From assembly GCA_016875225.1 (NCBI GenBank), contig VGRW01000015.1:1-60514 (forward strand): a stretch of DNA of 60,514 bases, in the 5' to 3' direction. The position numbers were made by a program, and so were the translations under genes. The stretch comes from Deltaproteobacteria bacterium. Lineage in GTDB: Bacteria; Myxococcota_A; UBA9160; SZUA-336. Shown here piece by piece: positions 53,982 to 55,543 of this stretch (its first letter is position 1; each line of letters opens with the position of its first letter). The notes below the pieces were generated by a model. The model was not told where the DNA came from, searched no databases, and was given only the letters and a program-made list of their open reading frames with translations.

Positions 53982-55019
53982 ATGCTGCCGCGCAGAGTCT
54001 TCCTGAATCACGTCAGCCACTACGTGCCCGAGACCGTGCTCGACAACCGCTTCTTCGAGGGGATCCTCGACACGACCGACGCGTGGATCCGCGGCCGGGT
54101 CGGAATCGCCGAGCGGCGCACGATGAGCGACTACCGCGGCAGCTTTCCGGTCTTCGAGATCGGTCGCCGCGCGGTCGATCGGCTGATCGAGACGACCGGG
54201 TTCGATCTCGCAAGCGTCGATCTGATCCTGTCCGCGAGCTGCACGGACGACCTGCAGTACCCTGGGCCGGGCAACATGATCTCGCAGCACTACGGGCTGC
54301 GCGTGCCGGCGTTCCAGCTCAAGAACGCGTGCTCGTCGGTGGTGTACGCGCTCGAGGTCGCGCGCGGCCTGCTGCAGCTCGGCAGCTACCGCAGGATCCT
54401 GATCGTGAACGGCGAGCCGTTCACGATCCAGACCGACTACGCCGACCGCACCTCGGCGATCCTGTTCGGCGACGCGGCGTCGGCGATCGTGGTCTCGAGC
54501 GAGCCGGGCCGGCTCGAGCTCGTCGACGTCGCGATCGGCGGGCGCGGCGCCTGCGTGATCAACGCGAGCGCCCCCGGCGCGTCGCCGTCGGTCTCGATCC
54601 GCGACGCGATTCCGGCGCCGCAGGGCGCCACGCGGGACGATCACTTCGGCGGCGTCGCCCCGCACTTCGGCCGCTTCCAGCAGTCCGGCCGCGAGGTCTT
54701 CGACTTCGTCGTGAACGAGATCCCGGGCGAGATCCAGGCCTTCCTCGCGAAGCACCGGCTGTCGATGGACGACGTCGACTTCTTCATCGGTCACCAGGCG
54801 AACCTGTCGATGCTCGACGCGCTGTGCAAGACGCTCGGCATCGACGCGAGCCGGCACCTGTTCAACATCGACCGCTACGGCAACACGAGCTCGGCGGGCT
54901 GGGTCACGGTGCTCTCGGAGGCGCTGGCGGCGGATCGCTTCGAGTCGGGCGATCAGCTGCTGGTCGCGGCCTTCGGCGGCGGCCTCGCCTGGGGGTCGCT
55001 GCTCGCGCGCGCGGCCTAG
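53982..55019 (+). CDS. Beta-ketoacyl-ACP synthase III (FabH-like)
   Basis: A 345-residue thiolase-fold ketosynthase. The triad is Cys117 in KNACSSVVYALEVA, His271 in FFIGHQANLSMLDAL and Asn301 in RYGNTSSAGW. The N-terminal stretch YVPETVLDN, DAWIRGRVGI is standard for FabH/KASIII. It could start fatty-acid synthesis or condense an acyl group in a secondary pathway; genes of the core fab operon are not nearby. Its 3' end is 4 bp from the convergent peroxiredoxin gene's overlap point. Confidence 0.92.
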   Translation: MLPRRVFLNHVSHYVPETVLDNRFFEGILDTTDAWIRGRVGIAERRTMSDYRGSFPVFEIGRRAVDRLIETTGFDLASVDLILSASCTDDLQYPGPGNMISQHYGLRVPAFQLKNACSSVVYALEVARGLLQLGSYRRILIVNGEPFTIQTDYADRTSAILFGDAASAIVVSSEPGRLELVDVAIGGRGACVINASAPGASPSVSIRDAIPAPQGATRDDHFGGVAPHFGRFQQSGREVFDFVVNEIPGEIQAFLAKHRLSMDDVDFFIGHQANLSMLDALCKTLGIDASRHLFNIDRYGNTSSAGWVTVLSEALAADRFESGDQLLVAAFGGGLAWGSLLARAA

Positions 55020-55543
55020 CGGCGCGGGAAGCCGAGCTCTTCCAGCGTTCGCGCGATGTCCTGGCCGGCGGTCGACGTGCTCACGTTCTTGTCGATCTTG
55101 CGCACGATTCCGTCGGAATCGATGTAGAAGGTCCAGCGCTTGGCGAAGAGCCCGCCGAGCCCCGACACGCCGTACGCCTTCGCCGTCTCGCCGGTCGGGT
55201 CGGAGAGCAGCACGTGCTTCGACTCGAGCGACTTTGCGAACTCGGCGTTCTTCTCCGGCGAATCCAGGCTCACCATGAAGACGGACGCGCGGAACGCCCC
55301 GATCGCCTCGGCGCTGTCACGCAGCGCCGCGAGCTCCGCGCTTCAGCCAGGGGTGAAGGCCTTCGGGAACCAGGCCAGGACCACGCCTTCCTTCCCGGCG
55401 AACTCGGCGAGCGTCCAGGTCTTGCCGTCGCTGCCCTGCAGCGCGAAGTCGGGCGCGCGCGCGCCGACCGCGAGGTCCGCGCTGGCCGCGCCGCCCGAGG
55501 CGCCGAAGAGGACCGAGAGCGCGGCGAGCGCGCGTTTCATCAT
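55016..55543 (-). CDS. Selenocysteine-containing peroxiredoxin (BCP/AhpC-TSA type), exported
   Basis: A 175-residue thioredoxin-fold peroxidase read through an in-frame TGA at 55345-55343. The protein runs MMKRALAALSVLFG (signal peptide), APDFALQGSDGKTWTLAEFAGK, then WFPKAFTPG-U67-SAEL. The TGA stands exactly where BCP-type peroxiredoxins have the peroxidatic Cys (TPGCTxE). The same frame continues with VFMVSLDSPEKN, LLSDPTGETAKAYGV and RWTFYIDSDGIVRKID, all family blocks. No Cys occurs anywhere, so it is a 1-Sec enzyme needing an outside reductant. A SECIS-like hairpin follows the TGA. The ATG overlaps the SnoaL stop. Confidence 0.9.
55309..55345 (-). promoter_or_regulatory. SECIS-like hairpin directing UGA recoding
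   Basis: On the minus strand the TGA (55345-55343) is followed by 13 nt and then a perfect 8-bp stem, CGGCGCTG (55329-55322) with CAGCGCCG (55316-55309), closing a 5-nt loop CGTGA. Bacterial SECIS elements are short hairpins in this position, with a GU in a small apical loop bound by SelB; both conditions hold. Confidence 0.65.

Follow-up and report, generated by a model that had tools for sequence, protein, structure and literature searches.

Selenocysteine (Sec)-containing peroxiredoxins with a TxxU active site form a long-catalogued family (COG1225 Bcp / pfam00578; PMC1088965, PMC1794560, PMC2398784, PMC9312934, PMC13188914), and few bacterial selenoproteins are commoner or have been known for longer. 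The Sargasso Sea set holds 43 of them (PMC1088965), the GOS marine metagenomes 253 genes (PMC2398784), and the deltaproteobacterium Anaeromyxobacter dehalogenans carries three copies (PMC1794560), in agreement with the statement in the original prediction for the present locus that such proteins are known in some deltaproteobacteria. PrxU of Eubacterium acidaminophilum is also a peroxiredoxin selenoprotein.

The gene described here lies in a 60,514-nucleotide stretch (the window; contig VGRW01000015.1) of a Deltaproteobacteria bacterium genome of 3.87 Mb (182 contigs, 97.8% complete). It shares the Pfam family, TxxU motif, peroxidatic Sec and bacterial SECIS (bSECIS) with the catalogued proteins, but its product is Cys-free and predicted to be exported; the published papers print too little sequence for a comparison at subclade level. 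The protein is not a PrxU equivalog (NCBIfam peroxi_PrxU, NF040737; 50.9 bits versus a cut-off of 270) and also falls below the NCBIfam Bcp cut-off (74.7 versus 140). It is 32% identical to E. coli Bcp (PrxQ), U67 aligning with the peroxidatic Cys; whereas Bcp has a further Cys at C+5 (TPGCTVQAC), the corresponding residue of the window protein is Ala, and Leu occupies +4. M. tuberculosis AhpE shares 32–33% identity (TM-score to target 0.84–0.88), each protein having a single redox residue, Cys in AhpE and Sec here. The novelty first claimed for the locus was overstated, TxxU Sec-peroxiredoxins having been catalogued for years (PMC1088965, PMC1794560, PMC2398784): the family itself is already known, and the distinctive part is the Cys-free, predicted exported subclade. 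We found no description of such a subclade in the literature searched, where little sequence is printed, nor any paper in that search naming Myxococcota together with selenoprotein and selenocysteine.

The complete gene occupies 55543–55016 on the reverse strand and encodes 175 residues, starting at ATG 55543 or ATG 55540. Its translation (MMKRALAALSVLFGASGGAASADLAVG...WFPKAFTPG-U-SAELAALRD...VFMVSLDSPEKN..., ending in RR before the stop codon) has a single internal TGA, at residue 67 (55345–55343, reverse strand), in an AhpC/TSA frame that is otherwise unbroken. The read-through product matches Pfam AhpC-TSA (PF00578) with 105.5 bits (E = 2.3e-30, cut-off 26) over residues 26–149, one domain match that crosses the TGA and bears out the predicted continuity of the frame on both sides. 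In a BLASTP alignment with E. coli Bcp, residue 67 falls on the peroxidatic Cys (motif TPGC), the BCP-type position originally proposed for it, and homologues carry either TGA or Cys there. Four positions are invariant in the family alignment: P60 and T64 (codon 55354–55352, reverse strand) of the active-site motif PxxxTxxU, residue 67 itself (Cys or Sec), and R136 (55138–55136, reverse strand), the candidate catalytic arginine of peroxiredoxins; together they supply the PxxxTxxC/U motif and the conserved Arg. The window protein contains no Cys at all, as had been noted, and no second Sec. A standard gene caller would probably break the gene in two or overlook it.

An AlphaFold2 model, with Cys in place of Sec, adopts a peroxiredoxin fold (pLDDT 93.1) in which residue 67 sits in the first turn of helix 65–76. 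Among solved structures, Foldseek places it closest to Bcp1 (6.6e-15), BcpB and the 1-Cys peroxiredoxin AhpE. Residues 1–22 (MMKRALAALSVLFGASGGAASA; 55543–55478, reverse strand) form a predicted signal peptide, identified from the sequence and a hydropathy heuristic, and model confidence is low over residues 1–20 (pLDDT 58–59) and above 90 thereafter. A simple hydropathy plus A-x-A heuristic, on which support for the originally proposed signal peptide depends, is consistent with the sequence and finds a signal-like N terminus in 94 of 107 family rows. Export of the Sec-peroxiredoxin is very likely on these sequence features. Immediately upstream lies a SnoaL-like gene (55956–55540, reverse strand) whose stop overlaps the Sec gene start (ATGATGA), and the two probably form an operon; this neighbour is not conserved beside the relatives' genes. 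When neighbouring genes were clustered, with a minority of them scanned for families, we found only lineage-local neighbours and no conserved redox partner or reductase beside the gene, and none in the clusters read looked redox-related.

The BCP/PrxQ 2-Cys subgroup is marked by a resolving Cys (C+5 in E. coli Bcp), and the Cys-free window protein has none; a single peroxidatic residue with no resolving residue is instead the 1-Cys (here 1-Sec) arrangement of AhpE. By this analogy, we infer an exported 1-Sec peroxiredoxin with a mechanism like that of 1-Cys AhpE. After export, Sec67, held in the PxxxTxxU pocket with Arg136, would reduce H2O2 or an organic peroxide and become a selenenic acid, as expected from the family. 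With neither a Cys nor a second Sec in the protein, recycling should need an outside reductant. An outside thiol would then reduce the selenenic acid; the likeliest candidates are a thioredoxin-like protein of the periplasm, which a DsbD/CcdA-type membrane protein could feed, or a small thiol. Two DsbD_TM matches in the window's genome make a periplasmic reducing route possible, with no tie to the Sec-peroxiredoxin. Sec might also be decoded and then recycled through an inter-subunit Sec–Sec diselenide or a selenenylamide, with no direct reduction by an external thiol. Such chemistry fits a chain with a single redox residue, but AhpE, a close structural analogue, is a 1-Cys enzyme and uses external thiols; we regard the diselenide or selenenylamide route as unlikely and recycling by an external thiol as likely.

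The genome is equipped to insert Sec. It has one tRNA-Sec above the Rfam cut-off (75.6 bits; confirmed by ARAGORN, anticodon TCA), selA (512.6 bits), selB (290.5 bits, above cut-off, with SelB winged-helix and β-barrel domains) and selD (334 bits), so that all four components whose presence the original prediction proposed to check were found. The selD gene (L018; G000 C36, 1531) has its own in-frame TGA (..APGGG-U-ARKLG..) and looks like a selenoprotein gene itself. The genome contains three further AhpC/TSA matches with one TGA each: an AhpC/TSA gene with FFRGHW-U-PFCMSEL (L133; G000 C13, ~1612, reverse strand), a probable second selenoprotein; an AhpC/TSA-like gene with VRHFG-U-LFCREQ (L140; G000 C120, ~1606, reverse strand), also a probable selenoprotein; and a ResA/TlpA-like gene with the motif WASW-U-GC (L134; G000 C53, ~1606, reverse strand), which resembles the NCBIfam WAxxUGC selenoproteins. 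The WASW-U-GC protein is a possible exported partner of the Sec-peroxiredoxin.

Downstream of the UGA, a candidate bSECIS hairpin (55329–55309, reverse strand) begins after 13 nt, with an 8-bp stem (CGGCGCUG/CAGCGCCG) and a 5-nt apical loop, CGUGA (55321–55317). Published bacterial SECIS criteria specify a loop of 3–9 nt with G in its first two positions, a stem of 4–16 bp, a distance of 16–37 nt from the UGA and a minimum free energy at or below −7.5 (PMC13188914); the window hairpin lies within these limits (CGUGA, 8 bp, UGA-to-loop spacing 21 nt, −18.9 to −20.4 kcal/mol). Taken alone, the window hairpin is no more stable than synonymous recodings of the same sequence (p = 0.56). The DNA is very G+C-rich, which makes a single-sequence fold unexceptional, and the case for a SECIS therefore rests on comparison between relatives.

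That comparison used 92 distinct family members drawn from 60 related genomes and GTDB species genomes (Myxococcota/deltaproteobacterial, gammaproteobacterial, planctomycete, acidobacterial and other MAGs), of which 59 have TGA at aligned codon 67 and 33 have TGC or TGT. The apical loop is CGUGA in 53 of the 59 Sec genes and CGGGA in the other 6, and varies at the same position in the Cys genes; all 59 TGA genes, versus few Cys genes, have a hairpin with one of these loops at the required spacing. Every Sec gene (59/59) uses CGT or CGG for Arg75, which the loop encodes, whereas these two codons make up 170/476 of the other Arg codons in those genes (p = 1e-24) and 4 of 16 where Cys genes have Arg at that position. 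Stem positions pair in 84% of cases in Sec genes versus 49% in Cys genes, and folding z-scores relative to synonymous recoding are −1.14 and −0.26, respectively (p = 1.7e-4), although these p-values overstate independence, the genes being related by descent. Synonymous differences drop to 0.16 in hairpin codons 71–79 versus 0.49 downstream. The contrast between Sec and Cys genes and this reduced synonymous change agree in pointing towards a SECIS. Directed by the hairpin, SelB and tRNA-Sec would decode UGA 55345–55343 as Sec.

No stop other than TGA and no residue other than Cys occurs at codon 67 in any of the 92 members, so the relatives show Cys or Sec throughout, as the original prediction had asked, and no decay of the frame was seen in them. 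Within the class, 22 genomes (counting the source genome of the window) encode relatives with TGA at this very codon, which argues that the TGA is not there by chance. TGC and TGA differ by one base and the frame is mechanically broken, as a nonsense mutation in a former Cys peroxiredoxin or a sequencing error would leave it, but a TGA recurring at one codon in 59 distinct genes from several phyla, a nonsynonymous/synonymous ratio that is 0.48 before the TGA and 0.54 after it, and the presence of both a SECIS and the sel genes make either origin highly improbable. Because the TGA and the sequence downstream of it are both conserved, we rejected a pseudogene and a sequencing error. Least credible of all, and discarded, is the reading in which translation ends at the TGA and the two ORFs that exist mechanically on either side of it (66 residues upstream, 86 downstream) are separate proteins: the TGA interrupts a single AhpC-TSA domain within the first turn of a helix, the TGC relatives encode one protein and the hairpin is conserved in TGA genes only. 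The central claim, that this is a selenoprotein whose peroxidatic residue is Sec, is accordingly supported by the sel genes, the codon 67 pattern and the undecayed frames. Judged from these comparisons, the window gene is almost certainly genuine and intact, with UGA decoded as selenocysteine at the active site of a peroxiredoxin.

The TGA form occurs in 22 genomes of the class; 18 of them have a strong tRNA-Sec match, and the remaining 4, MAGs in which tRNA-Sec was not found, have selA. Across the class, at least 63 of 91 genomes have a strong tRNA-Sec match, with two matches each in G061 and G030. A genome of the same genus (G001, 95% complete) has a best homologue 62% identical to the window protein with TGC at codon 67, and tRNA-Sec, selA and selB above cut-off are all absent from it. 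The relation between Sec machinery and TGA is one-way, as expected, because another genome (G024) keeps tRNA-Sec and selA with a Cys form.

A second Cys at U/C+4 (C71) is present in 55 of the 92 members; in the window's clade the position is Leu, Ala, Met or Ile. This putative resolving Cys is kept in the gammaproteobacterial and planctomycete relatives and is Leu in the window protein. On a maximum-likelihood tree, whose outgroup branch is long (2.22) and whose deep branches are weak, C71 changes once and Sec/Cys six times. Three sequences (L023, L027 and L095) form a small Cys clade beside the window's Sec form, with Leu kept at 71; L023 and L027 thus share the lack of Cys at 71, and L027 has no other Cys. 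From their sequences, the Cys forms of this clade are likely Sec-to-Cys reversions.

We tentatively suggest, with less confidence than for the gene itself, a class-wide, Myxococcota-related subfamily of exported Cys-free 1-Sec peroxiredoxins that may have dedicated extracytoplasmic thiol recycling, perhaps selenium-containing, and may revert to Cys upon loss of the Sec machinery. The locus is an example of how a whole protein could be lost to routine gene calling, in a little-studied class rich in tRNA-Sec. Its relatives, with Sec or Cys at residue 67 and with or without C71, offer a ready comparison for the benefit of Sec to an exported one-residue peroxidase, and the same relatives bear on the fate of such a protein after the Sec machinery is lost, with Cys in the same-genus homologue.
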